Positions 1-19,830 of a stretch of DNA of 20,413 bases are shown piece after piece; position 1 is the stretch's first letter, and each line of letters begins with the position of its first letter. The stretch is taken from positions 1 to 20,413 of IMG/VR virus record IMGVR_UViG_3300005605_000031; one strand, 5' to 3'. The DNA is from a virus. The position numbers and the translations under genes were made by a program. The notes below the pieces were generated by a model. It searched no databases and was not told where the DNA came from. It was given only the letters and a program-made list of their open reading frames with translations.

Positions 1-3000
1 AGTAAATGTATTTCCATCTACAGAATCAATTTGAATTGATTCGTCATGTGCAAAATCTGTTCCACGAGGATAATGATGTTTTGTGGCATGAGCATCTCTA
101 TCACATGTAAATGTTAATGAAGTAGTAGCAATTCCAACACTGCTAGATGCTCTTTCAATACCATTAGTTGTAGCAGAAACAAAGGTATGAGCAGAAACGT
201 CTGGAGATATTCCAACATCAACTGCAAATGTATTAATTCCTACACCAGAAACTGACATCCACTTATTGCTAACAGGATCACTAGGTCTAGGATAAGAATG
301 TTGTGTTACATGATTGTCCTTAGCACAAGTCATCAATATAGAATCATCATTAATCTTAACGTAATCACCATTAGTAAACTGATGGTTAGGAATATTGAGA
401 ACCAATACACCTGTACCTGGTGTATATGTACAAGTTGTTATTGTATGCTTAGTTGGAGCACGTAGTCCATGATTAGGTGATGTAAATACCAACTTACCAT
501 CATTAGGAGCATAAGTTGCTGTAGAAATACCTTTAGGTGCTAAAGTTGTTACACCTACATTAACTGTAATTGTAGTAGCTGCGGTTGCTCCAACACCAAT
601 TACTGCTTTATGTACAGGATCATTAATACCAGATCTTCCAACATTAACAGTAATAGTATTAGTGGTTTTTCCAATAATTGCTATAGTTGTATCATAAACA
701 GGGTCAGTTGCACGAGGATAAGCATGATTAGTAGCATGATTATCTAAAGCACATGTGAAAGTTAAAGAATTCTCAGCAATAGTAATACTATCAGCAGTTG
801 TAAGTCCGTGAGCATTGGCAAAGGTTAATACTAAATCACCAGTTACACCATCATAAGTTGCTCCTGTAGGAGTCTTAGCAGTTTTACCTGTTGGTGTTAT
901 AGCATTAGTTGCTGCACTTACAAATGTATGTGAATATCCAGCACGAGGATAAGCATGTTGCGTAGCATTTGAATCTCTAGCACATGTAAATGTTAGAGAT
1001 GTGGTATTAATTCCAATATTACTTTTTGCTTTCTTAAGGCTATTATTAACTACAGATACAAGAGTATGAATACCAACATTATTACTATTTGCATATCCAA
1101 CATTAACTTCAAATGTATTAGCAGCTACACCAAGAATTGGAAGCCATCTACCACTAACAGGATCTGATGAACGAGGATATGTATGCAATCCGGCATGATT
1201 GTCTTTAGCACATGTGAATTTCAATGCCCCATCATCTATCTTGACATATTCACCTTTAGCAAATCCATGACTTGCAAGTGTAAATGTACAAATACCAGTT
1301 ATTGGTGTGTATGTAGCAGTAGATATTGTATGTGAAGTAGCGGGGAATAATCCGTGTAAATTCCCAACTGTCATTGTCAAATCACCAGTTCCAGGAGTAT
1401 ATGCTGCAGCAGAAACTGGATGATATACTAAGGTTGATACACCAACATTAACAGTAAATTTAGTTAAGGTTGTAGATGCAATTGCAACGTTAGTAACATT
1501 ATGTGCAGGGTCAGTTGTACGAGGATATGTGTGCTGAGTAGCATGATTATCTCTTGCACAAGTGAATGTTAGTGAATTAGTGGCAATACCAACAGTATCA
1601 ACACCGTGTCTGAGATTATGTCTACCAGAAACTGTGAATACTAATGTTCCTGTTGATGGAGTATAAACTGCTTGTGTAGGTGTTAATCCAGCACCAACCC
1701 AAGATCCAATACGAACTGCACCAGAAGTAGCACTTACAAAGGTATGAGCATAATCACCACCACTGAATACTGCACTGCTTCCAGCACTTACAAAAGTATG
1801 TGGATAATCACCACCAGAAACTACAGCATTTGTGCCTGAAGTTACAAACTTATGCACATACTGTCCACCAGATCCAATACCAATACGCTCATTACGCATT
1901 GCTTGTATTGCCATATCTCTGGCTTGCTGGAAAGCATATATTGTTTGTGGTTCTTCATCGGCAACATGAGCACCAGTTATATAAAGATTCGCTGCATCAT
2001 ATACCCTATCATTACCACCATATTCGGTATTATATGCAACAACATCTACAACATCTATAACATCATCAATACAATCTTGATTAACAAATGTACCAACACC
2101 AGATGCTACCTTAAATGTAGCAACACCAACATTAACAGTAAATTCTGTATTTGATGTCTTAGTGATAGCAGCAGTTCTACCAGAACCAACTGGATCATCA
2201 CCACGAGGATATAAAGTTGAAGTAGCAAAATTATCTAAAGCACATGTAAATGCTAAAGAACGATCAACAATTGAAATAGCGGCATTTGTTACTAGTCCAT
2301 GATTACCAGCAAATCCTAATGTTAAAATACCAGTTGAAGCACTATATGCTGCAGCATTAGGTGTAAGATTACCAGCACCTACTATATTAACAGCATTAGT
2401 TAAAGTACTAGATCCAGCATCAAATTTATGCTCATAAGGACCGTTATACTTATCCAACATACGTTTTACAGCAACCTCGCCAATTAAATTCTTATTCTTA
2501 CGAATGAGTCCTGCAGCATCACCATACCTATCTTCAGATGGTTTTGCTTTTGCTGGAGCAAGCTCATAAGTCATTGATAAACCAACACCAGTTGTACTGG
2601 TATTTCCAAGACCCAATCTAGATACACCTTCAACATCTAAATTCTGATATGCTGGACTATCTACCCAAATTCTTGGATTTTCATATCCAGTTCCCATTCC
2701 AATTATATTGAATGTCAATTCTCCACCGTCTCCAGAAGGAGATTTTCCAACATTTAAAGTAAATGTATTAATAGTCGTTGATCCAATTGCCAAAGAAGCA
2801 TTATTTGCAGGGTCTGTTAAACGAGGATATGCATGTTCAGAAGAATAATCATCTTGACTACATGTAAATGCTATAGAAGTAGTTGCAATACCAACAATAT
2901 TACCAGCTGTATGTCCGTGTCCAACCGATGTCAATACTAAATCACCAGTTGCAGTGTTGTAAAGTGCGTCAGAAACATCAGTATATTGAATAGTTGCAAA

Positions 3001-6000
3001 TCCAACATTAACAGTTACAGTATGAGGACTGCTAGTTGTAACTGCAGTAACGTCTATACTCTTTCCAGCAACAGGATCAGTTGCACGAGGATAGGCATGA
3101 TTAGTAGCGTTATTATCCTTAGCACACGTAAATGTTAAAGTATTCTGTCCAATCCTAATTTCATCGCTTGCGGTAATTCCGTGAGCATTAGCAAAGGTTA
3201 GTACAAGAGCACCTGTTGCTCCATTATATGTTGCACCACTTGGTGTTGTAGAAGCACCACCAACCTTAGTAACTGCGCTCTGAGCAGCACCTACAAAGGT
3301 GTGTGGATACTGACCACCATAATATATGGCACTAGTTGCTGCACTTACAAACTTGTGAGGATATTGAGCACCAACGGTTGCAATAATAGTAGCAGCAGTT
3401 CCAACATGGTTAGGATCTGATACTGCAACACCAACCTGCCCAACATATCCAGATCCAAATGTTCCAGTAGATCCTATACCAATAGAAGTAATTGCACCAT
3501 CAGAATTTACTGTGGTAGTAACTGATGCTCCTACAAGAGGTGCATATCCTAATCCACCAGTTGATCCAAGAGAAACAACTACACCACCTCTTGGCAATTG
3601 ATTCTGATTTATATCATAATCAACAATAATATTATCATCAGTACCTGCTCTAGTAATTCCAGTGAATGTTACACTAGTAATTCCAGAAATTTCATCAAAT
3701 GCGTAATTATTTCCTGCATTATTAATAGTATTTGGTGTTTGGAAAACATCGTTTATAAAGACAAGATCACTTCCAGCTTCAACTCCACTTGTATGCTCTC
3801 CTTCCTTATAAACAGTAAATGTCTTTCCAATACCATTAAATTCTAATGATGTATCATCATATATCTTATTTCCTGCATAATCCCTACGGAGATAAACCCT
3901 ACCATTAAATGTGGATTTTGCCGATGGAAGAGCACTAGAGTTTAATCTAGTATTTGTTCCCTTTCCATCAGGTGCATCAGTAAACCATATTTTATTTCCT
4001 ACAATATTAAATGCACCCTTATAAATTCTAATATCAGTTCCATCAGTATGTGTTGTCTTTGCAGTTCCAACAAATCCCCTCTTAACTTCAATAACTGGGA
4101 ATGTTCCAACACCAGTAATTGGACCTAATGTCTGAGTTGCTAAACCAACATTAACAACATCAAGGAATTCCTCATCAAGTTTAACAATATCTCTTGGTTT
4201 AACTGAAGAAATGCCAGTAAGTCCTAAGAAGGTCAATCCTACACCAATAGTAGAAGTATTATTTGCAAGTGTAAATGATAATGGAGTGTACATCAAAGGA
4301 TATTGAGTTACACCGTCTATAGTAATTAATGCTTTTTCAAGCTTCTTCTTCATTTCAAGTTTATGATAATTACCAGATCCAGTAGAAAGGAATGTAAATC
4401 CAATTCCAGGATTATCTTGAGTTCCTCCAGATGTTCCTGTTAATTTAAAAGTATCCTTTGTAAGCTTAATTGCATAAACTGTTGTTGGGCAAATTGTAGT
4501 TGATACACCAACCTCAAATCTCTCTCTAAATGTTGATGCAACAGAAACATTATTTAAAGTTAATCCCCAATCAACATCAGTTGAATAGAAGGTTACACCC
4601 GTTCCTACTGGAGTAACATTTCCACTCATTGTAATAGAACCAATACCAATTGAGATAATAGTTGATCCAGTACCCGCTATTACAGCATCATTTGCTTGAT
4701 TGAATACAATAGATCCAACACTAAGTTGTACTGTATTAGCAATACCAGTAATAACAGTACTAGAAGCACTAGAATTACCAATAAAGTAATTGTAAGATGT
4801 ATTAATTCCCGTTATTTGATAATCATTTATTACTTTACCACTACTTACAAGGTGTTCTATTGTTTGTCCAACTACCATTCCAGTAGTATTAGCAATACCT
4901 GTAACAGTTGAGAATCCAGCAATAACATCTGCAGTAAACTGCACACCTTGAACCCTAGCAGAGCTAATTCCAAGAGGTTCTGCTGCAGTTCCAATTAAAG
5001 TTGATTCTGGAGTATAAATCAACTCTTCTCCAGTCTCGAAGAAATGATTATCAATACTGAATATTCCAGTAGCAGTATCTAAAATAGTAGCAGTCTTTGG
5101 ATTAAATACCTTCTCATAGATAGGAATTCTCTTATAATTTAAATCAAAATCTAATTTATCCTTACCAAATTCATTCAATGATCCGTAGAAAGAATTAGTG
5201 ACATTTTCAATATGTGTTCCATAAGTATAATCTGGAGGAATATTATAAAGATCGCGATCAGCATATATTATTTGATTAAATGCCGAAACTTCCACATTAT
5301 CCGAAACATATTCTGGATCAGGGTGGAATTTAACTGAAACTGTTGTTCCCGATACAGATGTAGAGAATGTTCCAATTCCAGAAGTACTACCAACAGATAT
5401 AAATTGAGAATGTTGAATATTAGCCGTAACTTGATCTGCAGCCACCCATACGTTATGAATTGCTGCTGTTGATCCAACACCCACTTTAATTATTGATTTT
5501 GATGCAAATTCTACATCTTGATCAAGTGTAAAGAGAGTGGATATACCAGAAGTATTGTTATATACTGATTCTAATCTTGCAGTTCTTTCTGACCCATCAA
5601 GTTGATCAGCAACAAGGAATCTATATGTTCCAACACCAGCTGTAGTAGATCCAATTCCAACTACTTTTGCTTTAACTGTTACGTTATTTTGTGTGGAATT
5701 ATCAAATTTCAATCTTAAAATATTATTTTCAACACTCATTCCAAAAGTACCAATACCAGGACCAGAATAAGTTGCAAAATTCTGAGTATCAAAATAAGAT
5801 TCTGCTATATGAGTATCTTGACCATCATAATAACCAGCAATTTCATAATAATTCTGCCTCTCAGTCGATTCATCTCTAACATGAGCATATGCATAGAATG
5901 TATCAATTTGACCAGGTAATGCCCTAAAGACCGATGTACTGAACCCTAATGTTCCAGATCCAGAAGCTGGTCCAACTCTTTCTGTTTTAGATGATAATCT

Positions 6001-9000
6001 TGCAAATCCAATATCAGTATATCCAATACCAATATTAAATGGACTACTATCAAAAGATTCTCTATAAACTTTTATATTATAACTATAATCATTTGGATTA
6101 ACAGGTGTGAATCTTAAGATAGGATCTCCAACCGCACCTAAAGATCCAACAAAATCACCAAGTTTTGTACCCTGAGATACAACATCTATCTTATTAGTAG
6201 TATAAGTATCAGAATAATTGTTTAGAAGAATAACTTCACTCAACTGAGTGCTTAATTTTTTCTCATCAGATACTTGTACTAAGAACTTAGAATAGAAATC
6301 TGTAATTGAATATTCTGCAACATCAACATAAGGTTGCCTATTTAATTCAGCACTAGAGAAGTTTTCACTAATATCATCAATCTGTAAAACTCTATTTGAT
6401 ACACAGTTAATATAATCTGATAATTTCTTACTCTTAAATATAATAAATCTAGAAAAATTGGAACCAGGATTGTAATCTTGAACTAAATCAAAATTGCTGA
6501 TAGTATCAACTCTTCTTAAAGAAATAAAGTCTAATACTGGTGATAGAGATTGTGTTACTCCGACTCCAACAACTGTTGCTGATATTACTTCCGTATCAGC
6601 AAAATTCTTCATTCCTACAGGATGAACCAATTTATTAACTGGATCAACCATCTCATCCCAAGTAATCGGGCTCTTAACAGTGTATGATAGGTTTTGATAG
6701 TAATCATTATCTGGCAGTACTTGAAGATCGTCACTCAATCTTCCAGTATTGTCCTTCCATCCAAAATCCTTTTTGTTTGCATAATCAATTACAAATCGAT
6801 TATTATATGAATCTATACTATTAACTGTAGCGTAATTACCAGAAGTAGCACCAATTAAAACGTCACCAACCTTTACTTCATAATCACCAACAGTCTTAAT
6901 AAAGTTTTCATCAATAACCTTAACCTGTAAATCGGTTAGAGTATCATTTACCTTTAAGAATTCTTCAACAAAGAAAAGACTTGGTTCTCTGGTGATAGAA
7001 AATTCTGGATAATTATCCGATTTAACAATAGAAGTAAACGCTGTCTCAGCATCTAGATAATTTCCTGCATCAGTTGTATAATCTCCAATATTATATTTTA
7101 AAACAGCTGGATTAGAATTTGTATATGAAAGTACTCTAAAGAAATTATAATTATGATCTATTGAGTTAAATCCATCTCCAGGATATGTAACATTACCTAA
7201 ATCATCGGTGTAACTCTTTTTACCTATCCCCTCAATCCAAATTTTATCGCCATTTTTAAATGGTGGAACAATAAATCCTTGAATTGCTGGTGTATTAAGT
7301 TCTAACGTTACAACTCCACTGGATTTAATATAAGATGTAACTCTTACAACTTGAATGCCGTTACTATTGTTTAAAGTGTAAATTCTATGAGAAACATTGT
7401 CTAATCCTTTTGGTTCATCAATAATTTCAATACCCTCTATAGCATTACCATTAAAATTGGGTTTTACCTTAATTAAACCAGTTTCAACTTTTTTCTTTGT
7501 ATATTCATTAACAACTACTACATCAGGTGGTGAAATATAATTTTTACCTCCACTAATAACTTCAACTCTTGTTATTTTCTGCGAAGCCTCAAGACCAATA
7601 TGCTTAAATATCTCAGCTTGAGGACTTAAAGTTTTATCTGAAGAATATTCAAATCCCTCATTAATAATTCTAAAATTATTAAGTTTTCCAATAGTACTAG
7701 TTTTTGGTTGAATAATTGCATTAGATCCTAAAGAAGTCGCCGTTGATGTTGAAAAACCACTTATAGTCGGCAATTTCTTATAATTGGAACCACCCGCAAT
7801 CATATTCAATTTGGTTATTGGTCCAGAAGCACTTAAAGAAGATGTATTATATTTTAATACTTTACAATCAGATGGAACATAAGTTAGTCTTTCTGGAGAT
7901 TCATCAAGAGAAATATAGAAAGATGTTGATCCTATTCCAAAAGCAGTAAATGTTCCATTATATACACTAGGTCTATACAATATTTCAGAATAATCCTTAA
8001 CATCATTATCAGGTTTAACAGATTTACCATCCTTTTCTATAGAATAATATAATTTTGTTGGTAAATCATCATTATATGCAATCGTAACTGATGCACTAGT
8101 GTTAACACCTACTATACCGTTTCTTACAACAGAGAATGTATTAGTTGTTCCTGTAGATACAAATTCATTACTTACAGTTTGATCATAAAAAAGTTTGAAA
8201 TCATAATTTGCTAAAGATGAATCACCTACATTAAAAACTAAACTATTGTTCTTAACTACTTCAATTTGGGGATTAACTTTACTTAATTCCTGAGTAACAC
8301 CACCTGTACTACCAATACTTATAATTTTTGGTGGATCTGAGAATACATCAATATAAGTATTTGTAAGTCTAATATTATTATCATCTATCTTATAAACAAA
8401 ATATGATCCAGTATCTAAACCACTGGCAATCATTCCATCACCAGCACTGTAGAATACCTTATCACCAGATTCTAACTTATGATCATCTAGATTAAAACTA
8501 CTATGCAATCTATCTACAGCATAACTAGAATTCTTAACAGCATTTGAATTAAATCCAACAGGATCTATAAGAACTTTATCATAAGTATTATTATATCTTA
8601 CGGTAACTTCTGTTGCTTCATCAATTCCTAAAGATAATCTAGGATTAACAATAAAATCAACTTTATCTAAATTAGAAAGATCGTGAACTGTTGAAATTGA
8701 TACTTGAGATTTAATCTTACTTGCAGTAGCAGTTAATCTTGTATTAGTAGTTTCAAGGCTATATCCATAGGTATTGGATCCATTATTATTAAAGAATAAT
8801 CCACTCGTATTAGTAGTAAGACCAATTTGAGTTACTATTCCAATAAAATCTTTGGATTTGTTTATAACATAAACAGTTTCAACATCATCTGCAGCGGGTA
8901 AATTTAGATTTGGTCCTGCAGAAGTATCCCTTACCTGTATCGCATTATCTCCGTTTTCTTTTCTTAGTAAAAGTGCCTGATTATTCTTAAAAGGATGATT

Positions 9001-12000
9001 TGGAATATGGATGCTTTGAGTCTGAATAGAAACAGTCTTCTTAGTCTCACCAACAAAATATCCAATAGAAGTCTCAACACCAGTACCTACACCAACACCA
9101 ACCGTCTTATTTGGGTTAAAGTATATTTTAGTATCTTTTTCAGAATCAAAATATTCAGTTGCTAATGGAATAGTAAATGAGTCTGCTTTATAATAAACAG
9201 TTGTGCCTACAGTATGTGCAACACCAACAAGTTCTCTCTTAACTCTTAATATCTTTTCATCATCAAATCTACCAATAACGGAGAAGAATTCAGTTCCAAT
9301 ACCAATAGTCGTTCCAGATCCAACTAAAGGTGGTATAGATGAAACATAAATATCGGTTACAATACCAGCAGTAGAATGTCCTGGAAGATCTGTTATGAGA
9401 TATGATGTTTCTGAAGTAACTCCAATAACATGTGAATCTAATAACCCATCAATATGAGTGGTAACACCAGAAATAGTAATTCTATCTGAATCTAAAAGAC
9501 TATGTACCTTAGGGGAATGTACGCTATTATCATGTGTATAAACACGTAATGTATTCTGATCTTCCCAAGTAACTACTGAATTTTCAAATTTATCATAAGT
9601 TGTGGTTACAGATAAAATATCTTTACCACCAATACTAGTAACTTCTGCTATTGCTCCGCCACCTTCAGTATTCTTATTAACAAAATTAACAGCATTACCA
9701 ACCTTATAATCTGTTCCTGGATTAACAATGTCTAATGAATCTACAGATCCTCTTGATGCTGATTCAATAATAGAAGTTTGTTTATATGTTTCATTTGATT
9801 CAATAAGGAAATCATTTCCAGAATACTTTTGGTCTACTCTATATGGGAAGGTATTTCTAACTAAAGAAGAATTAGAAAAATCAAAATCTTGATCTAAAAC
9901 ATCAACTGAAGTATTTGATCTATAAGTATCACCAACAAAATATGGAAATTCTGGTTTTAATGTATTGTTAGTATAATCTGTAGTAAGACCGACATGATAA
10001 GCATAAACACCATTTGGAAACTCTGGAGTCTTAGTAAATCTACCATTATGGGAATCTAAGTGCCCACCACCAGTAAACTTATAATCCCCAACAAAATACC
10101 CCAATTCAAAATCAGTTAATGTAGGTCTATCAGTAATATTGTATTGTGAAGCAGTATATCCTGTATCCATCTTCACAATGGTAGATGTCATATCTTTAGG
10201 ATCTTGATATGCATAAGGTCCATAAATTGGATTACCATCATTAGCCCACCCAATAACAGCAGAATGACCTGTATCTACATCAGGGTCATTTAATGCTGTA
10301 CCATCTCTTATAGTTGAATATCCAACTACACTGTAAGATAAATCATCTACATTTTCATATAATACTTCTTCACCAAACCTTTTAAAGTTATTAACTATAA
10401 GTGGTCTTACACTTGGATCTAAAACACAATTTCTTCCTGGAGGTATTATGGAAATATATGTATTATTATCTTGATAATTAGTTCCTCTATTAAGAACTAT
10501 TATATCAATAATTCTTCCTTTTTCAACAACTGCTCTTACCTTTGCGCCTTCACCTCTACCCTTTATTACTATATCTGGAGCAGCATTATAATATTTTCCA
10601 CCATTCTGAACTTCTACTTCAATTAATTTTCCATCCTTTATAATTGGTTTTAATTGAGCAGCTTCACCATTTTTAATAGTTAATGTTGGTTTTCTCTCAA
10701 AATTAAGTATCTTTGATCCATATCCCGATCCATTTTCATATACAAATACATCAATTATTTCTCCTCTAACAAGTGGAGTAGCAGTAACTGTTCCTATTGA
10801 ACCACCTGTAATTTCAGCCTCTACAGTAATTTTAACCGGAGGATAAGAAATTGATTGATATCCAGTACCTGCTGCCCTAAATCTTACATAATTTCTACTA
10901 TCATAGAAATTCTTTGCTTCAGAATTATAAAATGGACTTGCACCACTAATTCCAGCAGCAGTAGATGTAATTATTGAAGGAGAAGCATCAAATGCAGTTA
11001 CTGATCCTGAGTTCTTACAACACAATAATATTGTTCCATATACCTTCTTAAGTGGTGCTTTTGATGGTGTAAAATCAGACACATATCTTGCAGCACCTTT
11101 AACTATCCTCAAGTTAGAAATATTTCCTTTAAAATCACCAATTGTACCATTCCAACTACCAATTCTAGGTCTTGGAGAACCTGTATTAGCAGTAACAGTA
11201 TAAGTATGAGTACTACTATTTTCTAAAACTCCATCTATAAAGATTCTTGATGTTCCAGATGAACGAGAAATTGCAATATGGTGCCATACATCATCTGCAA
11301 CTGATGTAGCAGATAGTAGAACAGTAGTCGGACTAGTATGTAATTTTACACGACCACCACCACCAGAACTTAATAAACTTATAACAGGATTATTAGAATT
11401 ACCTCCAGTTGGTCCATCCATCATATAAATTATACGTTCAGAACTACCATCTAAAGTAGCTACTGCAGTTTTTACCCAACATTCAAATGTAAAGTCACCA
11501 GATCCAAGAACAAAATCAGAATGTCCACCAATATCAAGTCTATCACTAGTTCCATCAAATAAAACTGATCCTAATTTTTCTTCTGTAACACCAACATTTG
11601 ATAGTTGGAAACTAGAACTATCAATTTTCATAACATAATAGGAATTTTCACTCGAAAGTCCTATTATTGGAGTAGTTTCATAAGTATAATTAACTAAATC
11701 ACCATCATTAAATCCATGATTAGGGAAGTTAATAACACTTAAGGATGTTGTAATTCCAAGAGGTGAAACTTTTAAATTTCTATTTTCATATCCAGATCCC
11801 GGATTTATAATTTTAAATTCAGAAATTACATCTTTTGCTTCTAAATCCCTAAATTTGTGCATTCCACCAGTATTAATGGTAGTAAATCCAACTGTATTAA
11901 TACCTGCTACATAATCTTCTAATTTCTTATAAAGATAAATCGCTCTTGGATTTATAGTTTGTGGATAATAAATTGATCCATTTACAAGGTATTCATCTTG

Positions 12001-14634
12001 ATTAGTATTAGATCCACCAAAAGTACCTATTCCAAGTGGTAAATTGCCACTAGGATTATAAACAATTGGATCACCATCTTGTAATCTATGCTCCTCATCA
12101 AAAACAATAGTCTCATTAGAAATATCAACACCACCAGTTAATGCAACACCAACCTGTGAAGCATTAAATTCAATTTCTCTATATTGTTTCGTTAATACTG
12201 GTTTAATATCAGCATCAGTACCATTTCCACCATCAATAGTTGCAGAAACAATCCTTTGAATGCTGAAATTTTGTGAATCGATTAAAACATCTTTAACAGA
12301 TCCCCTAACAACTGCTGTAAGTAGAGCAGTAGTACCAACACCAACAGCAGCTGGCTTAGAAGCAAGAATAGTGGGTGGATTTATAACATCATAATTAACC
12401 CCTTTATTATAAACCTTTACATCTTCTATTGGTCCATAATAAACCTTATCATCAGTTTTATAATTTAAAATTTCAACACCATTTACCATCAATCCAACAG
12501 GACCAAACTTAGTTGCTTGATTAGTTCCAGATTGAATATTTGGTACTAAAGGAATTTTTGTTAATGCTTTCTTTGCTGATAAAGTTCTACCACTATGCTG
12601 TCTTAATGTGAATGAATGAGTAGAATTTGTATTATATGCATCAAATTCAATATAATTTGTTGTTCCAATAAAAGATTTGGATACATATAACCTTATTTGA
12701 TTTGTACGATTGTTATTATCCCTTAAAACCTCAACATGATATATTTCATTCAACTTTAAACCACTAATAACATTATCAACACCTGATGAACTGTATATAA
12801 CCTCATCACCAGTAATAAAAGGAACATTGTCAACAAAACCCAAAACAGAATATCTGTTCGATGCTGCACTATATCCCTTAAAATAGTCACTTATAACTGT
12901 TGATCCTGTTATTGTAAAACTAGATGCAGATTTTTTCTTAGTTATTGAATATTTTGGTAGAGAATTTGATGCAACATACATATACTCCTCATTTTCATTA
13001 TAAACATTCTGTACATCTGAAAGAATGTTTGAGGAAGATAAAATAACGTCAGAAGGAGAAGTAGTCCCTGCATAATCATACCTTTTTCTTATACTTAATT
13101 GGGTATAAGAAGGAACAGTAATATTTTGATCTATTTCTACGCTATATTCACTGATTGCAGTTACTTTAGCAAGTGTATTAACTGCAGATTCACTATTTCT
13201 GTTTAAAATATCTACAGTATCACCAACTTTCAAACTAGAAGGTTGTGCCTTTTCATGCAAAACCAACATGTTATTATTAAAACTTGCAATTTCATATCTA
13301 GATCTTACATTGTAAATCCAAGTATTAAATGCAAATTCCTTAAAGTTTCTATTCTTATTCTCAACTTTTTCACCAAGGTTCTTAACAGAAATTAAGTCAT
13401 CCTTTAATAATAAACCAAACTTATCTTTATCCTTAATATCTGATAGAACACCAGTAATTCTTAATCTAACTGGCTTTGTAATATCTCCATCTTCATATCC
13501 GAAAATCGTATCTTCAGAACGAATATCATCAGTTGGATTAATAATATCATTTACACCAGTACAATTAAAGAACTGATTAACATTTTTACTATTAAATGTA
13601 ATTTTATTATCCCCAGAAACTAGAGTTCCTGTAGTACCAAATCCAACTGTAGAATCAACTGTAATTACAGAAGCACCAATAGAAACAGTATCTGTAACTT
13701 TAGTCTTTGGTGAAATTGTAAAATTGCCCTGAATTAAGCTACTTTCATCAAATCCAGAGAATAATTGTATTTTATAGAACGTTCTATTGTTTCTACTGAT
13801 AATTTCAACTTCAGAAACAGGCCCAGCAGCACTTAAATCTGCATTTTGAACCATATTTCCAACTAATTTGTTGGGATCTCCAGATATTCTCTCACAAACT
13901 AATACTTCTCTTCTAATATACTCACCAGCAGAAGGTTTAAGTAGAAAATCCTCTAAATTGATAATTTTAGGAGTATGTCCAAATAAAACGTTGAAAAGAA
14001 TCCTAAATGATTCATTAGTTCCTTTAGATTGATAAAAATCACGTATTTGCTTAATAAATTTATTAATATCTAAATCTTTTACAAAATCAACATCTTCAAA
14101 TCCAGGGGCAAGAAGAACTTTTAATTTTCTATAAAATTCTTGTAGAAATAGAGCACTTAAATTCTCTATTCTTAAATTATTATTATGAGCACTTGCAGTT
14201 GTAGATTCAAAAATTAATTCTTCAGAATTAAGTGGATCCCTATAACTGGTAATACCACTAAATCCACGAATACATCCAGTAAAACTAGTTGAAGTTTTAC
14301 CAGTATATGTGATTATTTCATCATCAACTTTAATAAGACCATACTGATCTGGATATCCTTTCGTATTATCTACCGAAATTGTTGTATCAGTTGTAGATAC
14401 AGCACTTGTTAAAGATGTGATTCCAGCAACCACATCTTGAGTCATATAGTTAAAATTCAAATATTGATCAAGATTTTCAGCAATATCAATAGGTCCACCT
14501 TGATATTCCTGCCCAATATAATATTGCTTTAAAAATTCCGATGCCTTAGGAGCTTCCGATATTAAAAACTCAGGTAACTGATTATCAATTATTTGTTGTA
14601 CTTTGACTCTAGCATCAAAACCGGTCGTGATCAT
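1..14634 (-). CDS. Giant modular baseplate/tail structural protein (gp7-like ends, LamG, YHYH, repeat arms), 3' truncated
   Basis: The frame is open for 4878 codons, from ATG at 14634 to the window edge, with no stop, so the C-terminus is missing. In-frame codons just upstream of the ATG are a stop, which fixes it as the first possible ATG. The visible part exceeds 500 kDa. Seen in order: an alpha-helical N-terminus (1-270) with DFYQSKGTNESFRILF (199-214), which resembles T4 gp7 as I recall it; a tail-type hairpin element around 72-130 (ITYTGKT, GCIRGFSG); a LamG-like domain (about 1020-1205); GxxY beta repeats near 732-760, 1340-1388 and 2356-2378; a YHYH domain (1457-1572); a second gp7-like spot, VHPVGM (2670-2675); tandem beta repeats (about 2930-3130); and a repeat array from about 3800 onward. 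It lies directly behind gp25-gp6 in a late operon, so a virion baseplate role is likely. Replacement of gp7 is inference; a large baseplate-anchored fibre is the alternative. Confidence 0.9.
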   Translation of the reverse strand, partial: MITTGFDARVKVQQIIDNQLPEFLISEAPKASEFLKQYYIGQEYQGGPIDIAENLDQYLNFNYMTQDVVAGITSLTSAVSTTDTTISVDNTKGYPDQYGLIKVDDEIITYTGKTSTSFTGCIRGFSGITSYRDPLNSEELIFESTTASAHNNNLRIENLSALFLQEFYRKLKVLLAPGFEDVDFVKDLDINKFIKQIRDFYQSKGTNESFRILFNVLFGHTPKIINLEDFLLKPSAGEYIRREVLVCERISGDPNKLVGNMVQNADLSAAGPVSEVEIISRNNRTFYKIQLFSGFDESSLIQGNFTISPKTKVTDTVSIGASVITVDSTVGFGTTGTLVSGDNKITFNSKNVNQFFNCTGVNDIINPTDDIRSEDTIFGYEDGDITKPVRLRITGVLSDIKDKDKFGLLLKDDLISVKNLGEKVENKNRNFKEFAFNTWIYNVRSRYEIASFNNNMLVLHEKAQPSSLKVGDTVDILNRNSESAVNTLAKVTAISEYSVEIDQNITVPSYTQLSIRKRYDYAGTTSPSDVILSSSNILSDVQNVYNENEEYMYVASNSLPKYSITKKKSASSFTITGSTVISDYFKGYSAASNRYSVLGFVDNVPFITGDEVIYSSSGVDNVISGLKLNEIYHVEVLRDNNNRTNQIRLYVSKSFIGTTNYIEFDAYNTNSTHSFTLRQHSGRTLSAKKALTKIPLVPNIQSGTNQATKFGPVGLMVNGVEILNYKTDDKVYYGPIEDVKVYNKGVNYDVINPPTILASKPAAVGVGTTALLTAVVRGSVKDVLIDSQNFSIQRIVSATIDGGNGTDADIKPVLTKQYREIEFNASQVGVALTGGVDISNETIVFDEEHRLQDGDPIVYNPSGNLPLGIGTFGGSNTNQDEYLVNGSIYYPQTINPRAIYLYKKLEDYVAGINTVGFTTINTGGMHKFRDLEAKDVISEFKIINPGSGYENRNLKVSPLGITTSLSVINFPNHGFNDGDLVNYTYETTPIIGLSSENSYYVMKIDSSSFQLSNVGVTEEKLGSVLFDGTSDRLDIGGHSDFVLGSGDFTFECWVKTAVATLDGSSERIIYMMDGPTGGNSNNPVISLLSSGGGGRVKLHTSPTTVLLSATSVADDVWHHIAISRSSGTSRIFIDGVLENSSTHTYTVTANTGSPRPRIGSWNGTIGDFKGNISNLRIVKGAARYVSDFTPSKAPLKKVYGTILLCCKNSGSVTAFDASPSIITSTAAGISGASPFYNSEAKNFYDSRNYVRFRAAGTGYQSISYPPVKITVEAEITGGSIGTVTATPLVRGEIIDVFVYENGSGYGSKILNFERKPTLTIKNGEAAQLKPIIKDGKLIEVEVQNGGKYYNAAPDIVIKGRGEGAKVRAVVEKGRIIDIIVLNRGTNYQDNNTYISIIPPGRNCVLDPSVRPLIVNNFKRFGEEVLYENVDDLSYSVVGYSTIRDGTALNDPDVDTGHSAVIGWANDGNPIYGPYAYQDPKDMTSTIVKMDTGYTASQYNITDRPTLTDFELGYFVGDYKFTGGGHLDSHNGRFTKTPEFPNGVYAYHVGLTTDYTNNTLKPEFPYFVGDTYRSNTSVDVLDQDFDFSNSSLVRNTFPYRVDQKYSGNDFLIESNETYKQTSIIESASRGSVDSLDIVNPGTDYKVGNAVNFVNKNTEGGGAIAEVTSIGGKDILSVTTTYDKFENSVVTWEDQNTLRVYTHDNSVHSPKVHSLLDSDRITISGVTTHIDGLLDSHVIGVTSETSYLITDLPGHSTAGIVTDIYVSSIPPLVGSGTTIGIGTEFFSVIGRFDDEKILRVKRELVGVAHTVGTTVYYKADSFTIPLATEYFDSEKDTKIYFNPNKTVGVGVGTGVETSIGYFVGETKKTVSIQTQSIHIPNHPFKNNQALLLRKENGDNAIQVRDTSAGPNLNLPAADDVETVYVINKSKDFIGIVTQIGLTTNTSGLFFNNNGSNTYGYSLETTNTRLTATASKIKSQVSISTVHDLSNLDKVDFIVNPRLSLGIDEATEVTVRYNNTYDKVLIDPVGFNSNAVKNSSYAVDRLHSSFNLDDHKLESGDKVFYSAGDGMIASGLDTGSYFVYKIDDNNIRLTNTYIDVFSDPPKIISIGSTGGVTQELSKVNPQIEVVKNNSLVFNVGDSSLANYDFKLFYDQTVSNEFVSTGTTNTFSVVRNGIVGVNTSASVTIAYNDDLPTKLYYSIEKDGKSVKPDNDVKDYSEILYRPSVYNGTFTAFGIGSTSFYISLDESPERLTYVPSDCKVLKYNTSSLSASGPITKLNMIAGGSNYKKLPTISGFSTSTATSLGSNAIIQPKTSTIGKLNNFRIINEGFEYSSDKTLSPQAEIFKHIGLEASQKITRVEVISGGKNYISPPDVVVVNEYTKKKVETGLIKVKPNFNGNAIEGIEIIDEPKGLDNVSHRIYTLNNSNGIQVVRVTSYIKSSGVVTLELNTPAIQGFIVPPFKNGDKIWIEGIGKKSYTDDLGNVTYPGDGFNSIDHNYNFFRVLSYTNSNPAVLKYNIGDYTTDAGNYLDAETAFTSIVKSDNYPEFSITREPSLFFVEEFLKVNDTLTDLQVKVIDENFIKTVGDYEVKVGDVLIGATSGNYATVNSIDSYNNRFVIDYANKKDFGWKDNTGRLSDDLQVLPDNDYYQNLSYTVKSPITWDEMVDPVNKLVHPVGMKNFADTEVISATVVGVGVTQSLSPVLDFISLRRVDTISNFDLVQDYNPGSNFSRFIIFKSKKLSDYINCVSNRVLQIDDISENFSSAELNRQPYVDVAEYSITDFYSKFLVQVSDEKKLSTQLSEVILLNNYSDTYTTNKIDVVSQGTKLGDFVGSLGAVGDPILRFTPVNPNDYSYNIKVYRESFDSSPFNIGIGYTDIGFARLSSKTERVGPASGSGTLGFSTSVFRALPGQIDTFYAYAHVRDESTERQNYYEIAGYYDGQDTHIAESYFDTQNFATYSGPGIGTFGMSVENNILRLKFDNSTQNNVTVKAKVVGIGSTTAGVGTYRFLVADQLDGSERTARLESVYNNTSGISTLFTLDQDVEFASKSIIKVGVGSTAAIHNVWVAADQVTANIQHSQFISVGSTSGIGTFSTSVSGTTVSVKFHPDPEYVSDNVEVSAFNQIIYADRDLYNIPPDYTYGTHIENVTNSFYGSLNEFGKDKLDFDLNYKRIPIYEKVFNPKTATILDTATGIFSIDNHFFETGEELIYTPESTLIGTAAEPLGISSARVQGVQFTADVIAGFSTVTGIANTTGMVVGQTIEHLVSSGKVINDYQITGINTSYNYFIGNSSASSTVITGIANTVQLSVGSIVFNQANDAVIAGTGSTIISIGIGSITMSGNVTPVGTGVTFYSTDVDWGLTLNNVSVASTFRERFEVGVSTTICPTTVYAIKLTKDTFKLTGTSGGTQDNPGIGFTFLSTGSGNYHKLEMKKKLEKALITIDGVTQYPLMYTPLSFTLANNTSTIGVGLTFLGLTGISSVKPRDIVKLDEEFLDVVNVGLATQTLGPITGVGTFPVIEVKRGFVGTAKTTHTDGTDIRIYKGAFNIVGNKIWFTDAPDGKGTNTRLNSSALPSAKSTFNGRVYLRRDYAGNKIYDDTSLEFNGIGKTFTVYKEGEHTSGVEAGSDLVFINDVFQTPNTINNAGNNYAFDEISGITSVTFTGITRAGTDDNIIVDYDINQNQLPRGGVVVSLGSTGGLGYAPLVGASVTTTVNSDGAITSIGIGSTGTFGSGYVGQVGVAVSDPNHVGTAATIIATVGAQYPHKFVSAATSAIYYGGQYPHTFVGAAQSAVTKVGGASTTPSGATYNGATGALVLTFANAHGITASDEIRIGQNTLTFTCAKDNNATNHAYPRATDPVAGKSIDVTAVTTSSPHTVTVNVGFATIQYTDVSDALYNTATGDLVLTSVGHGHTAGNIVGIATTSIAFTCSQDDYSSEHAYPRLTDPANNASLAIGSTTINTFTLNVGKSPSGDGGELTFNIIGMGTGYENPRIWVDSPAYQNLDVEGVSRLGLGNTSTTGVGLSMTYELAPAKAKPSEDRYGDAAGLIRKNKNLIGEVAVKRMLDKYNGPYEHKFDAGSSTLTNAVNIVGAGNLTPNAAAYSASTGILTLGFAGNHGLVTNAAISIVDRSLAFTCALDNFATSTLYPRGDDPVGSGRTAAITKTSNTEFTVNVGVATFKVASGVGTFVNQDCIDDVIDVVDVVAYNTEYGGNDRVYDAANLYITGAHVADEEPQTIYAFQQARDMAIQAMRNERIGIGSGGQYVHKFVTSGTNAVVSGGDYPHTFVSAGSSAVFSGGDYAHTFVSATSGAVRIGSWVGAGLTPTQAVYTPSTGTLVFTVSGRHNLRHGVDTVGIATNSLTFTCARDNHATQHTYPRTTDPAHNVTNVAIASTTLTKFTVNVGVSTLVYHPVSAAAYTPGTGDLTMTVGNLHGLFPATSHTISTATYTPITGICTFTLASHGFAKGEYVKIDDGALKFTCAKDNHAGLHTYPRSSDPVSGRWLPILGVAANTFEVNVGYANSNNVGIHTLVSVVNNSLKKAKSNIGINTTSLTFTCARDSNATQHAYPRAGYSHTFVSAATNAITPTGKTAKTPTGATYDGVTGDLVLTFANAHGLTTADSITIAENSLTFTCALDNHATNHAYPRATDPVYDTTIAIIGKTTNTITVNVGRSGINDPVHKAVIGVGATAATTITVNVGVTTLAPKGISTATYAPNDGKLVFTSPNHGLRAPTKHTITTCTYTPGTGVLVLNIPNHQFTNGDYVKINDDSILMTCAKDNHVTQHSYPRPSDPVSNKWMSVSGVGINTFAVDVGISPDVSAHTFVSATTNGIERASSSVGIATTSLTFTCDRDAHATKHHYPRGTDFAHDESIQIDSVDGNTFT
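45..3132 (-). repeat. Array of nine Cx2Dx5HxYPR-type repeats in the giant protein
   Basis: Nine copies of a motif TFTCA-x-DN-x-AT-x-H-x-YPR-x2-DP lie, in forward coordinates, near 45-116, 266-335, 698-763, 940-994, 1157-1221, 1506-1570, 2191-2251, 2807-2870 and 3071-3132. Each follows a strand with TGxLxLTF..HGL and most are followed by an INVNVG-type strand. C, D, H and YPR are kept in eight units; the copy at 2191-2251 lacks the H. The copy at 2807-2870 reads CSQDDYSSEHAYPR. Spacing is irregular (roughly 220-620 nt) because other repeats are interleaved. The nucleotide core is conserved as well (forward cgaggata plus catgatt variants). Confidence 0.9.
1700..1880 (-). repeat. Three tandem 54-bp (18-residue) HTFVSA repeats
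   Basis: Three consecutive units of the form GGDYPHTFVSAGSSAVFS occur with an exact 54-nt period: the histidine codons lie at 1854-1852, 1800-1798 and 1746-1744. The units read GGQYVHKFVTSGTNAVVS, GGDYPHTFVSAGSSAVFS and GGDYAHTFVSATSGAVRI. The same unit appears as a tandem pair near 3270-3375 and singly near 170-200 and 905-935, so it is a recurrent building block of the arm. Confidence 0.9.
3270..3375 (-). repeat. Two tandem 54-bp HTFV repeats
   Basis: The giant ORF encodes QYPHKFVSAATSAIYYGG followed by QYPHTFVGAAQSAV. The histidine codons at 3357-3355 and 3303-3301 are 54 nt apart, the same period as the triplet near 1700-1880. This gives a second, independent array of the 18-residue unit. 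Confidence 0.85.
5255..5850 (-). repeat. Two diverged beta-sandwich repeats (about 126 residues each) in the giant protein
   Basis: Two units share the order of an internal VGIGST or VGVGST turn, a strand with HIAES or NIQHS, a GIGTF strand, and a final strand rich in V and K (LKLKF, VSVKF). The GIGTF landmarks lie at about 5758-5744 and 5380-5366, roughly 378 nt apart. Identity is low, so this is an old duplication. Similar repeats are common in large marine phage tail proteins. Confidence 0.5.
6590..6720 (-). other. Second gp7-like signature (VHPVGM) in the giant protein
   Basis: Around residues 2640-2682 the protein reads YYQNLSYTVKS, then ITWDEMVDPVNKLVHPVGMK and NFAD. A similar stretch with HPVGF occurs near the end of T4 gp7 as I recall it, and YQ..SY.IKS...VHP.G patterns recur in baseplate wedge proteins. 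If both matches are real, about 2400 residues are intercalated between the two halves of a gp7-like core. This is inference from motif memory. Confidence 0.4.
9919..10266 (-). other. YHYH domain in the giant protein
   Basis: Residues 1457-1572 carry the landmarks of the YHYH domain family: HSAVIGWANDGNPIYGPYAY at the start, a central GGHLDSHNGRFTKTPEFP, the name-giving YAYH (here NGVYAYHVGL), and a terminal FPYFVGDTYR. YHYH domains occur in secreted bacterial proteins and, from memory, in structural proteins of T4-like cyanophages. Their molecular function is unresolved; conserved histidines suggest metal or ligand binding. I see all the main motifs without truncation. Confidence 0.85.
10470..10790 (-). 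repeat. GxGY-type beta repeats in the giant protein
   Basis: Residues about 1282-1388 show repeated turns of the form NGSGYGSK, NGGKYYNAAPDIVIKG, GEGAKVRAVVEKGRI and LNRGTNYQD. The spacing suggests stacked beta strands, as in tail-fibre shafts. Related single turns occur near residues 732-760 (YNKGVNYDVINPPTI), 970-1000 (NPGSGYENR) and 2356-2378 (SGGKNYISPPDVVVV). These look like structural spacers rather than catalytic units. Confidence 0.6.
11020..11580 (-). other. LamG / concanavalin A-like lectin domain in the giant protein
   Basis: These are about residues 1020-1205. The hallmarks of a LamG-type jelly roll are visible in order: VLFDGTSDRLDIGG near 1025-1037, then SGDFTFECWVKT, a WHHIAISRSSGTSRIFIDG strand pair, and the closing GNISNLRIVKGAARY followed by SDFTPSKAPL. 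This domain class binds carbohydrate or protein ligands and is often found in phage tail and fibre proteins. Inside a baseplate protein it probably contacts host surface glycans or stabilises packing between subunits. The domain call is firm; the ligand is unknown. Confidence 0.85.
13830..14634 (-). other. gp7-like N-terminal module of the giant protein
   Basis: These are residues 1-268 of the giant ORF. Unlike the glycine- and threonine-rich remainder, this part looks alpha-helical, with segments such as LFLQEFYRKLKVLL and IKQIRDFYQSKG followed by ESFRILFNVLFG (about residues 195-215). From memory, T4 gp7 has a similar stretch (DFYSTKG, then KFLFKVLYNE). The order gp25, gp6, this protein matches the position of gp7 among wedge genes. 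A beta hairpin element with TISVD, DDEIITYTGKT and TGCIRG is inserted around residues 72-130; this pattern is common in phage tail proteins. The gp7 assignment needs a profile search. Confidence 0.5.
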
Positions 14635-14643: not shown

Positions 14644-16506
14644 TTACCTAGTTAACTGTCCATTGGAATAACTTGATCTGACGGGATAATTAACACCCGA
14701 TATTTGTTCGCCAGAAGCAATCGTGTCCTTAACCATATTTATCTCACTTTTTGAAACATCAAACACCAAATATAGATCCTTAAGACCAATAACATCATTA
14801 GAATCTGGATATGCTTGAATTTCAATAACACCATCGGGTAAAACAGTATTAGTAATATTAAGTGTATTAACAATTACCTCACCTTTTGTATAATCTACTG
14901 TTCCAATTGATTTTTTAACAACTTCATAAGTATCCGGTTCAACTGTAGGTTTAACTGCAGAAAGCACACCAATAGCACTGTCTGCAGATGGGACATCTAC
15001 AAAATACACTATTTCTGCTTCACCTTGAATTGAAAATCCAGTACTCTTAATGTTATAACCATCTATTTTCTTATAAAACTTATTACCAAAGCATAATTCG
15101 TACTGAGCATATGTATTTAATATACAATTAAGATTTCTTCTCATCCTAACTCTTGTAATATTGGATGTAATTGAATTATCAACACCATCAATCAATTGTA
15201 TGGTCTTACTATACTTAAATCTTCCACCAAATTTATTCAAATCTACTGATTTTGCATATTTTGATAAAGATGTTGTTATATTGGATTTAAGATCCAATAC
15301 ATTACTTACTCTTGAAGAATCATAGAAAATATCACTATCAATTTCAACATATAGTAGTTTAAGATCAATGATTTCTTGATTGATACCAGATACCGTATAC
15401 TGTTTTAAGTCATTTAAGAGTTCAGTTTTCTTAAAGTCTGATAATGTCCAACCATTTTTAGGTTTAATGCTGATTAGAACTTTTCCAAACTGAGGTGGAT
15501 CTAATTCTTCTCCACCAATAACAGTTACTGATTCTGTTTCTGGATAAACTGACTGAACTATGGCTTCATAATCCCTTGCTGTAACGGCACGATTTTGCGA
15601 TGCATAAGTTCTAGGAGCAAAGTACTTAACAGACTCAATAGGCTCAATGTCGCCGCCTCCAGAGGCATTAGAAGTGGTAGTAATACTAACACTAGTGGTC
15701 GAATTTATAATAGAATCATTACCATCAGTGGTTGTTCCCGCATAAGAGAATAATGATGGTCCATTACCTTCACTTCCTTTAGTTGTAATATAACTAACCG
15801 TAACTGTCTCACCACTGGATAGTTTCTTACCAATAATGCCATCACCGAATAAAAGTTCATATCTTTCATCAGTAATTTCTTGTAGTAGATAAATTTCTGA
15901 TTCACCATCAATTTTTACGATGTTATCTATCTGTTTATACTCACGAGTTCCAACTTTAACCACTATTGTGCTTGTATCAATATCAGGATTATCAAGAATA
16001 AACCTCTGATTCGTTGAATTATCGATTATAAACTGTTTTGTCAAGAAAATTCCTTGATAAACCGTAATATTTTCAAATTCTGCTACATTACTAACAATAT
16101 TTGTAGTGACATCTTCAGGTACAGAGAAGGTATATGTGGTGTTATCAACTCCACCAACACAAACTAACCCTGATTTTAGTATCAATTGCCCTTCTACACT
16201 TGATGTTCCTACATTAAATGATACAGTTGCCTTCGCTGCTGTCTTAGAACGGGGTACATAACCAATATTTCTTGCTAACGAAACAACATTTTCCCTTAAA
16301 GTCGCAGAATCCAGGAAGGATTCGTTGACAATCATGTTGGAATTGAATGCAGTAATATAGGTATTATATGCTAATGTGTCGATTAATACAGAAAAATTGG
16401 ATCCTTCAAAGTCAAAATCCGTGAAAGTTGTGTTAGCACGGAGATAATCCTTAATGGACGTCTTTATTTGATCGAAATCAAGATTTGTAAACTTTGTAAA
16501 AGGCAT
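14644..16506 (-). CDS. gp6: Baseplate wedge subunit gp6 (Baseplate_J-like)
   Basis: This 620-aa protein is close to the T4 gp6 length of about 660. It is the baseplate wedge protein that dimerises into the ring around the hub and drives sheath-contraction geometry. The N-terminus has a helical FDQIKTSIKDYLRANTTFTD followed by the FSVLIDTLAYNTY region and YVPRSKTAAKATVSF (about residues 80-96), both typical of the J/gp6 family. The middle has RAVTARDYEAIVQSVYPETE (about 304-323), the best-known family signature, followed by GKVLISIKPKNG. The ATG lies 1 nt after the gp25 stop, with no strong Shine-Dalgarno, so coupled translation is likely. The stop is a tandem TAATAA; the second TAA is in frame and shared with the reading frame of the giant gene. 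Confidence 0.95.
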   Translation of the reverse strand: MPFTKFTNLDFDQIKTSIKDYLRANTTFTDFDFEGSNFSVLIDTLAYNTYITAFNSNMIVNESFLDSATLRENVVSLARNIGYVPRSKTAAKATVSFNVGTSSVEGQLILKSGLVCVGGVDNTTYTFSVPEDVTTNIVSNVAEFENITVYQGIFLTKQFIIDNSTNQRFILDNPDIDTSTIVVKVGTREYKQIDNIVKIDGESEIYLLQEITDERYELLFGDGIIGKKLSSGETVTVSYITTKGSEGNGPSLFSYAGTTTDGNDSIINSTTSVSITTTSNASGGGDIEPIESVKYFAPRTYASQNRAVTARDYEAIVQSVYPETESVTVIGGEELDPPQFGKVLISIKPKNGWTLSDFKKTELLNDLKQYTVSGINQEIIDLKLLYVEIDSDIFYDSSRVSNVLDLKSNITTSLSKYAKSVDLNKFGGRFKYSKTIQLIDGVDNSITSNITRVRMRRNLNCILNTYAQYELCFGNKFYKKIDGYNIKSTGFSIQGEAEIVYFVDVPSADSAIGVLSAVKPTVEPDTYEVVKKSIGTVDYTKGEVIVNTLNITNTVLPDGVIEIQAYPDSNDVIGLKDLYLVFDVSKSEINMVKDTIASGEQISGVNYPVRSSYSNGQLTR

Positions 16507-16507: not shown

Positions 16508-16909
16508 TTATCTTGTTGCTTCTAGAATATAGGTAAATTTTTGGGGTGGAACGTCCTGACCAATGATTTTAAAGTTAATATTTACTTCAAAAGCATTATT
16601 ATCTGGTTGTGGAATGACTTTAACATTAACATTTTCAACCCTTGGTTCATAATTACTGATTGCAATTGTTATTTGCTCTTCAAGAATGGTTGCATTACCA
16701 AAGTCAACAAACTCAAATAGGGTAGTTTTTACCTCAGACCCAATATATGAGTTAAAAAATCGCTCACTAGGTACAGTTTGAATAAGATTGCGAATAGCTC
16801 TCTTAATAGCATCCTCATTTTTGAGAATGGGAATATCTTTTGTGATAGGATGCATCTCAAAAGAGAGACTAATATCCTTAAATGCTCTGGATATTCGTTT
16901 TACAGCCAT
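16508..16909 (-). CDS. gp25: Baseplate wedge subunit gp25 (GPW/gp25 family)
   Basis: This 133-aa protein matches T4 gp25 in length (132). gp25 sits at the inner baseplate, ties the gp6 ring to the tube and primes sheath assembly. The family signature is visible: ISLSFEMHPITKDIPILKNE, then DAIKRAIRNLIQTVPSERFF (residues 33-52), then the conserved GSEVKTTLFE (57-66). The EDAIKRAIRNL helix and the PSERFFN turn are the core gp25/TssE landmarks. The chosen ATG follows a perfect late octamer TATAAATA by about 30 nt; no clear Shine-Dalgarno is seen. It is the first gene of the gp25-gp6-giant late operon. Confidence 0.96.
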   Translation of the reverse strand: MAVKRISRAFKDISLSFEMHPITKDIPILKNEDAIKRAIRNLIQTVPSERFFNSYIGSEVKTTLFEFVDFGNATILEEQITIAISNYEPRVENVNVKVIPQPDNNAFEVNINFKIIGQDVPPQKFTYILEATR

Positions 16910-17517: not shown

Positions 17518-17690
17518 TAATTGTCTCCTTGTACTAAGTAAATTTCAGTGTTTAAATCGTCTGGATTGGGAGAACCTAGAAGATAAAAATCCTCTGCTAA
17601 GTTCCCCATAGTATCGAAGTATTCTTCCTCTGTAAGATCTGAATGTATCTTCTTACCTTTATGGTGAATATTATATCGATGCTCAGACAT
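17517..17690 (-). CDS. 57-aa conserved small protein, unknown
   Basis: ATG at 17690 overlaps the stop of the glycosyltransferase-like gene (TGATG), and its TAA overlaps the next ATG (TAATG). The sequence starts MSEHRYNIHHKGKKIHSDLT, followed by EEEYFDTMGNLAEDFYLLGS and PNPDDLNTEI. The pattern of a short basic strand, an acidic helix and a SPNPD turn recalls small proteins seen in T4-like cyanophages. No membrane segment or catalytic motif is visible. Translational coupling on both sides suggests stoichiometric expression with its neighbours. Confidence 0.75.
   Translation of the reverse strand: MSEHRYNIHHKGKKIHSDLTEEEYFDTMGNLAEDFYLLGSPNPDDLNTEIYLVQGDN
17525..17530 (-). promoter_or_regulatory. 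Strong ribosome binding site (AAGGAG) for the 49-aa gene
   Basis: Minus-strand AAGGAG, 7 nt before the ATG at 17517. It lies inside the last codons of the 57-aa gene. It is the strongest Shine-Dalgarno I found in the window and suggests high expression of the 49-aa protein. Confidence 0.75.
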
Positions 17691-18448
17691 CAGATCACTC
17701 TCGTTTTTTCGTGACCAACTCTAACGCGAGGATCACACCAGATTTCGAAGCCAGCTTCTTTGCAATCGAGACAGAAGGATACGTCTTCTCCACACATATC
17801 TTGTACTTCGCCCGATTCAAATACTTGCATCTGTGGAGCAAACCAGGGATACTTCATCTCTTCGTGTTCAAATACACCATTCTTAATGAGTAACCAACCA
17901 AAACCTGTGTAATCACAAGTAAAAGGCTTTCTACGCTTGCTCATACTCTCTAGTGTTTCGTGATTCATAACTCCACCATTCTTACGGAAGTCATCCTCTT
18001 CTAACCAGTGAGCAATCGAACTAGTATGACCATCTTCTGTACAATACCAACCTGCTGCAAGATCCTTATCCATTAGAACAAGTTGCCAGAACTTCTCTGA
18101 GTTGAATACTATATCACTATCAATCCATAATTGCCAATCATAATTAAGTTTTCCATCCCAAGGTTTTTGATCAGGTCCACGTAGAACGTTTGCTCCTAGA
18201 CACTTACATCTAGCAAAGTTCACCATAGAACTATAATCTTGAGAAATCTGAATACTTGCTCCACTTTGTACAAGATCAAAACATAGTTGTACGAAACTCT
18301 TTAGAAAAGCATATGATACTCCTCTACCAGGTAAGCAAAATACAATTGCTTTACCCTGAACCATTTGCCGTGCTGCATCGTAATCCCATTCTGCTTCTTT
18401 CTTAGCAGTAGTGGGAGTTTTTGCTTTAACAGTAAATCCTTTTGCCAT
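17690..18448 (-). CDS. Glycosyltransferase-like protein (GT-A fold, GT2-like)
   Basis: This 252-aa protein has features of a GT-A transferase. KAIVFCLPGRGVSYAFLKS (33-51) is the first strand and nucleotide-binding helix. WIDSDIVF (108-115) carries a DxD motif (D110-S-D112) that would bind metal and nucleotide-sugar. TGFGWLLIKNGVF (181-193) is the mid-domain acceptor loop. GEDVSFCLDCKEAGFEIWCD (220-239) followed by RVRVGHEK has the ED catalytic-type pair and the late metal-ligand-type histidine H246. Donor and acceptor are unknown; phage capsid or tail decoration, or host glycan change, are possible. A clear AAGGAA precedes the ATG, and an exact sigma70 promoter lies immediately upstream. From memory, relatives occur in T4-like cyanophages. 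Confidence 0.8.
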   Translation of the reverse strand: MAKGFTVKAKTPTTAKKEAEWDYDAARQMVQGKAIVFCLPGRGVSYAFLKSFVQLCFDLVQSGASIQISQDYSSMVNFARCKCLGANVLRGPDQKPWDGKLNYDWQLWIDSDIVFNSEKFWQLVLMDKDLAAGWYCTEDGHTSSIAHWLEEDDFRKNGGVMNHETLESMSKRRKPFTCDYTGFGWLLIKNGVFEHEEMKYPWFAPQMQVFESGEVQDMCGEDVSFCLDCKEAGFEIWCDPRVRVGHEKTRVI

Positions 18449-18996: not shown

Positions 18997-19018
18997 AAAA
19001 AACCCCCTAAGGCGGGGG
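18997..19018 (-). terminator. Intrinsic terminator after the 70-aa gene
   Basis: Minus-strand CCCCC / GGGGG stem with a 6-nt loop (GCCTTA), followed by six T. It sits 31 nt past the stop of the 70-aa gene and marks the border between the GC-richer block and the AT-rich operon. Confidence 0.85.
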
Positions 19019-19048
19019 CACTGTTGTTTGCACGAACGAATGGGGGTG

Positions 19049-19261
19049 TTATCCGATGATGTACCCGCCGCGTCCCTGTGCTTTGCGGTCTGCTAACAGC
19101 ATTTCCTGATAGCGGCGTTGAACCTCACAAAGATTATCAACCATTTGCTTACCTAGTCCCCCTGCCTTAGTGAAAGTCATGCCGCCGCCTGATGATGCGC
19201 GGAGGTGATGCCCTTTAAGGTTGGTGTCGGTTGAGCGGGTTGATCCGATTGCGCGATGCAT
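19049..19261 (-). CDS. 70-aa basic small protein, unknown
   Basis: I place the start at ATG 19261 (MHRAIGSTRSTDTNLKGH). The frame is open to 19366, but that longer form would run through the terminator at 19293-19321. A shorter start at 19180 (MTFTKAGGLG) is also possible. The C-terminal half looks most protein-like: KQMVDNLCEVQRRYQEML, a helix, then LADRKAQGRGGYIIG. I know no family. GC is higher than in the structural genes. It is a single-gene unit between two terminators, with no good Shine-Dalgarno at the 19261 start. Confidence 0.5.
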   Translation of the reverse strand: MHRAIGSTRSTDTNLKGHHLRASSGGGMTFTKAGGLGKQMVDNLCEVQRRYQEMLLADRKAQGRGGYIIG

Positions 19262-19292
19262 AGAAAATTTGTTTGGTACTCTGTTATTATAG

Positions 19293-19321
19293 AAAAAGAT
19301 CCACCCGTTTAGGGGCGGATC
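19293..19321 (-). terminator. Intrinsic terminator after the 34-aa gene
   Basis: Minus-strand GATCCGCCC pairs with GGGTGGATC (9 bp including one G-U), with a loop of about 6 nt and then five T. It lies 22 nt past the stop of the 34-aa ORF and argues against the longer form of the next ORF. Confidence 0.85.
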
Positions 19322-19343
19322 TCTGAATCTGTTACAAACTGAA

Positions 19344-19448: not shown

Positions 19449-19508
19449 GATAAAAAAGCGATGGTGTAGGGTGGGCGTCTTTGAGGCGAACCCGTTCCTA
19501 TAGAATTC

Positions 19509-19775: not shown

Positions 19776-19830
19776 GTTGATTTAGGAAATTTGGATGGGT
19801 GGGGGTTGGGTTGATTCCCTTCCCTCCACT

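Follow-up and report, generated by a model that had tools for sequence, protein, structure and literature searches.

A giant reading frame in a marine virus fragment is very probably gene 7 of a T4-like cyanomyovirus, coding for a roughly 6000-residue baseplate wedge protein

We suggest with high confidence that the frame filling most of a marine virus fragment is gene 7 of a marine T4-like cyanomyovirus and that its product, a baseplate wedge protein about 6000 residues long, consists of a core and beta-rich arms. The window analysed here is the complete IMG/VR virus fragment of 20,413 bases, and the sequence ends at its left edge. The baseplate genes in the window are listed below.

1..14634, minus strand: giant gp7-type baseplate wedge protein, N-terminal 4878 of about 6000 residues (PHROG 2885, E=0; homology; dN/dS)
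14644..16506, minus strand: gp6 baseplate wedge subunit, 620 aa (PF21379, PHROG 219)
16508..16909, minus strand: gp25 baseplate wedge subunit, 133 aa (PF04965, PHROG 261)

The frame starts with ATG at 14634, runs to position 1 through 4878 codons with no stop, and is open at the window edge, which bears out the first-pass annotation of a single frame of at least 4878 codons covering 72% of the window (14634 of 20413 nt). The five remaining frames contain 233-722 stops each over this stretch, and the probability of a 4878-codon stop-free run at the base composition of the window is about 10^-174. The positions previously used to check the frame (11556, 10266, 9921, 6612 and 3099) are all offset from 14634 by a multiple of three. 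The visible 4878 residues have a predicted mass of 525.9 kDa, in agreement with the proposed mass above 500 kDa, and T4 gp7 is indeed far smaller (1032 aa; about 1030 aa had been quoted). Comparison of the giant frame with that of a related IMG/VR contig, L098 (78% identical), gave dN/dS of 0.16-0.53 across all 300-codon blocks, indicating purifying selection along the entire visible length; the peak of 0.53 belongs to the block containing the LamG domain, where constraint is relaxed. GC content is 6-16% at codon position 3 versus 35-51% at positions 1 and 2. The dN/dS per block and the codon-position GC independently confirm coding by the giant frame.

The placement of the frame directly after gp6 was also correct, gp6 (14644..16506) and gp25 lying upstream. 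The order gp25-gp6-gp7-gp8 is found in P-SSM2, S-SRM01 and S-CAM7, where the homologues annotated as gp7 fill this slot; the gp8 position of the window lies past the contig end, and gp8 follows gp7 in 19 relatives. DNA megablast of the window detected no close isolate. The 462 records matching the window are all cyanophages or marine viruses, and these relatives suggest a cyanobacterial host. Two other regions of the window were noted. A 252-aa protein of unassigned function (17690-18448, PHROG 1574) shares 75-79% DNA identity with SSSM7_095 of S-SSM7 and with a marine virus contig obtained by single-cell amplification; its gene is more conserved at the DNA level than the baseplate genes and in S-SSM7 also stands shortly before gp25. 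The region 19001-20413 reaches a G+C content of 48% (30-38% elsewhere), and the rightmost frame of the window, in this region, ends with a DUF6267 domain.

The leftward extension to a stop codon, proposed by the first-pass annotation, could be followed by proxy only: in the nearest relatives the frame ends after 5567 (L099), 5934 (L097, IMG/VR 3300020411_002746) and 6037 aa (L098, IMG/VR 3300020445_000060), and gp8 comes next. Residues 1-4878 of the window protein are colinear with residues 1-4878 of L098 at 78% identity. Since the frame is colinear with the intact 6037-aa gene, the full gene should run to about 6000 codons; about 1160 C-terminal residues are probably missing, and gp8 probably follows. 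The conserved C-terminal region of the family (about 490 residues, its parts located at 5418-6035 in L098) would lie past the contig end. L098 and L097 are 76-78% identical to the window protein and have the LamG domain, the insertion 3226-3374 and the repeats described below, while more than 100 residues common to the window protein and L098 are missing from L097 after residue 4063. The gene encodes 3852-4920 aa as a single frame in 16 further relatives, each with gp8 next.

Among the isolates, gp7 of the Prochlorococcus phage P-SSM2 (YP_214343.1, 5195 aa) is homologous over nearly the full frame (window residues 2-1016 at 43% identity and 1240-4877, of which 1240-3334 at 36%) and resembles the window protein in gene order, the YHYH domain and the C..D.....H.YPR repeats. 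It differs by having no LamG insertion at 1017-1239 and five repeat motifs against eight in the window part. PHROG 26741 was matched by the window protein in addition to PHROG 2885 ("baseplate wedge subunit", E=0). The S-SM1 protein SSM1_102 (6180 aa, cluster T4-GC969) is homologous to the window protein at its N-terminus (profile E=2.6e-69). Like the annotated gp7 of P-SSM4 (7312 aa), it shares with the window protein the slot after gp6 and the N-terminal homology; both differ by an insertion of about 500 residues at about residue 110-112, within the wedge core, and by an extra gene, T4-GC399, between gp7 and gp8. In the 2010 comparative study (PMC3037559), S-SM1 virions were purified and multiple peptides were reported for 41 proteins, T4-GC969 among them. 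The idea that the window protein would be among the largest of the virion is thus supported through this homologue. Giant proteins in this gene slot are already known and present in the virion particle, and surprise at the size is not supported, given the range of 3852-6037 aa in the 19 relatives and the 7312 aa of P-SSM4. The window gene is real, correctly placed and of a kind already known, near the large end of the known size range.

The chain might be cut post-translationally, leaving no single protein above 500 kDa in the virion; we consider this unlikely. Related sequence is distributed over two genes around a gp9-like gene in S-SSM7 (L076 2562-21656) and P-SSM4 (L073 6234-33766), and over four consecutive frames in S-SKS1 (L071 20001-32387), suggesting that pieces may function apart, whereas in each of the 19 environmental relatives a single frame of 3852-6037 codons runs without interruption. 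The four S-SKS1 frames (707, 1571, 1062 and 592 aa), of which two lack annotation, are colinear with the window protein and reflect either errors in sequencing or a gene that is genuinely split. In S-SSM7, the second gp7-type gene is the one matched by the window repeats.

The identity of the protein as gp7 was analyzed in view of two conflicting sources: the GenBank annotation of the cyanophage homologues is gp7, and PMC7029224 describes T4 gp7 as absent from pelagi- and cyanomyophages, where VrlC appears to replace it. The similarity to T4 gp7 is visible by profiles only, with no blastp match of the window protein to T4 gp7 and no phmmer match of the entire frame to PDB. The profile of residues 1-565 detected one sensible match among PDB sequences, the T4-type gp7 9f4a (728-759, E=0.0027), and hhalign against seven T4-type gp7 sequences gave 95.9% probability and E=6e-9, a pairwise value without database correction. 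T4 gp7 residues 730-758 match PHROG 2885 at 196-224 (E=1.3e-4), and T4 gp7 also matches PHROG 26741. As a control, the cyanophage profile was compared with 18 T4 gene products and matched gp7 at 1.2e-7, the next being gp9 at 0.04. In the reverse direction, the T4-type gp7 profile detected only the N-terminal regions of the giant protein (2e-5) and of S-SM1 SSM1_102 (4e-6), while S-SM1 VrlC gave E=0.15, showing no gp7 signature. The match to T4 gp7 is limited to about 35-90 residues. Foldseek with the model of residues 1-565 detected the T4 baseplate chain 5iv5_BJ (3.9e-4, the only PDB match below 1e-3) and, as a second T4 baseplate match, 5hx2_A (0.07), whose lengths of 1004 and 1030 residues suggest that they are gp7 chains; the model is weak (mean pLDDT 61) and the fold match partial (TM-score 0.10 to the T4 match).

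If the protein served in host recognition or as a tail fibre and had no relation to gp7, with gp7 itself absent and VrlC in its place, this would agree with PMC7029224 and with the LamG domain, the YHYH domain and the fibre-type repeats carried by the window protein. The reciprocal profiles link residues 190-224 to T4 gp7 and not to VrlC, and the slot after gp6 is the gp7 slot in T4 and cyanophages, making this explanation very improbable. By the reciprocal profile control, its part concerning the core domain appears largely refuted, and the replacement of gp7 by VrlC is not borne out at the sequence level for the cyanophage lineage tested.

We conclude that the first 225 residues or so of the gp7-type protein are the wedge core, with the following features.

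13960..14634, minus strand: wedge-core domain, residues 1-225, with helices 3-70 and 159-218 around a beta insert, as in the gp7 family (model, profiles, comparison with XM1 gp17)
14161..14424, minus strand: beta domain between the two helical parts, residues 71-158 (secondary structure of the model)
13963..14067, minus strand: helix motif FYxSKGTxxSFxILFxVLFG, residues 190-224, common with T4 gp7 728-759 (profiles)

Residues K204, G205 and T206 of the motif region are invariant in A1. The model of residues 1-565 has predicted helices at 3-19, 22-27, 29-40 and 51-59. Helices 1-66 alone gave no significant alignment to T4 gp7, and for this reason we infer the first half of the core from its context. 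T4 gp7 has the corresponding helix motif (FYxxKGxExSxxxLFxxLY) and its gene lies between gp6 and gp8, as expected for the window gene. It differs in that the motif is located at 728-759, with about 650 residues before the domain, whereas in the window protein the motif is at 190-224 and the extension is C-terminal. Comparison of the sequences indicates that cyanophage gp7 has kept the core at the N-terminus and grown at the end opposite to that of T4.

In the gp7 homologue XM1 gp17, the initial helices pack with two chains of gp16 (gp6-type) into the core bundle, and the helical domain is broken by a stretch that the map leaves unresolved; flexible parts of the protein bind tail spikes (PMC10457771). 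The T6SS protein TssG forms the same kind of heterotrimer, and two of its loops bind TssK trimers (PMC6300606). By their published description, both proteins, which belong to simple contractile systems, resemble the window protein in having the wedge core at or near the N-terminus, the XM1 helices being likewise interrupted by an insert, and they carry the attachment of spikes (PMC10457771) or TssK (PMC6300606). XM1 gp17 is 242 aa long, in contrast to about 6000 aa expected here.

The domains following the core were compared in 23 proteins, the window protein included.

10906..11586, minus strand: LamG/ConA-like lectin insertion, residues 1017-1243 (PF13385 at 1028-1181), in 4 of 23 proteins, nearest clade only
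9958..10269, minus strand: YHYH domain (PF14240), residues 1456-1559, in 23 of 23 proteins
4513..4959, minus strand: insertion, residues 3226-3374, common to only 4 of the 22 other relatives
1..3267, minus strand: repeat array, residues 3790-4878, beta modules of about 85-100 residues with the motif C..D.....H.YPR, 8 copies

The YHYH domain searched alone gave no match in PDB. The repeat motif, present in 8 copies in the window and 11 in L098, is absent from the short members; repeats were detected in six of the 23 proteins, with one additional weak partial match. In the phage collection, 284 records contain the repeats, and these are without exception records of Synechococcus, Prochlorococcus, cyanophages or marine viruses; the repeats are carried by gp7 and by proteins whose annotation is structural or short tail fibre. 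The repeat model is all-beta (pLDDT 83). The module has only weak Pfam matches (End_beta_barrel of phage endosialidase, Cthe_2159, E1_FCCH) and nothing significant in Foldseek, where partial matches of about 78 residues to phage endosialidases and E1 enzymes recur; a small beta-barrel would be no more than a guess. A 54-base tandem repeat (1732-1848, 2.2 copies) encodes Y.HTFVSA units between the larger repeats. The contig end falls within the array, where the DNA repeats are 68-83% identical, and the array plausibly explains why the assembly broke off there. This location would also suit a long frame created in assembly by joining or miscounting repeat units, but the separate contig L098 is colinear over residues 1-4878 at 78% identity with an equal repeat number in the shared part, so that we give this explanation hardly any credence.

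Returning to the giant gp7, we propose that the first 225 residues or so pack with two gp6 chains, forming the (gp6)2-gp7 scaffold in each of the six wedges; the homology of the core is demonstrated and the complex is predicted from it. The remaining conserved residues (about 3600), together with the clade-specific insertions, would form beta-rich arms extending the wedge outward. Contact with the cyanobacterial surface, or the anchoring of fibres, is likeliest for the LamG domain and the repeat array, and by analogy with the gp7 homologues of XM1 and T6SS our best guess for their role is cyanobacterial surface attachment. A more speculative possibility, which we consider rather doubtful, is that gp7 took over the outer baseplate, combining in one chain the wedge core and the receptor-binding periphery (in T4: gp7, gp10, gp11 and gp12). 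In this reading, gp7 and tail-fibre genes would swap lectin and repeat modules and thereby change the attachment target.

What is new here is modest: the gp7 core has been located in the giant chain from both profile directions, and the constant and inserted parts have been mapped. Our literature search found no cyanomyovirus baseplate structure and no paper on the giant gp7. Marine cyanomyoviruses are abundant, and the boundary between core and arm at about residue 225 of about 6000 provides guidance for structural biologists. The data contradict the published statement of a missing gp7 (PMC7029224). For host attachment they offer two direct candidates, the lineage-specific LamG domain and the repeats confined to cyanophages.
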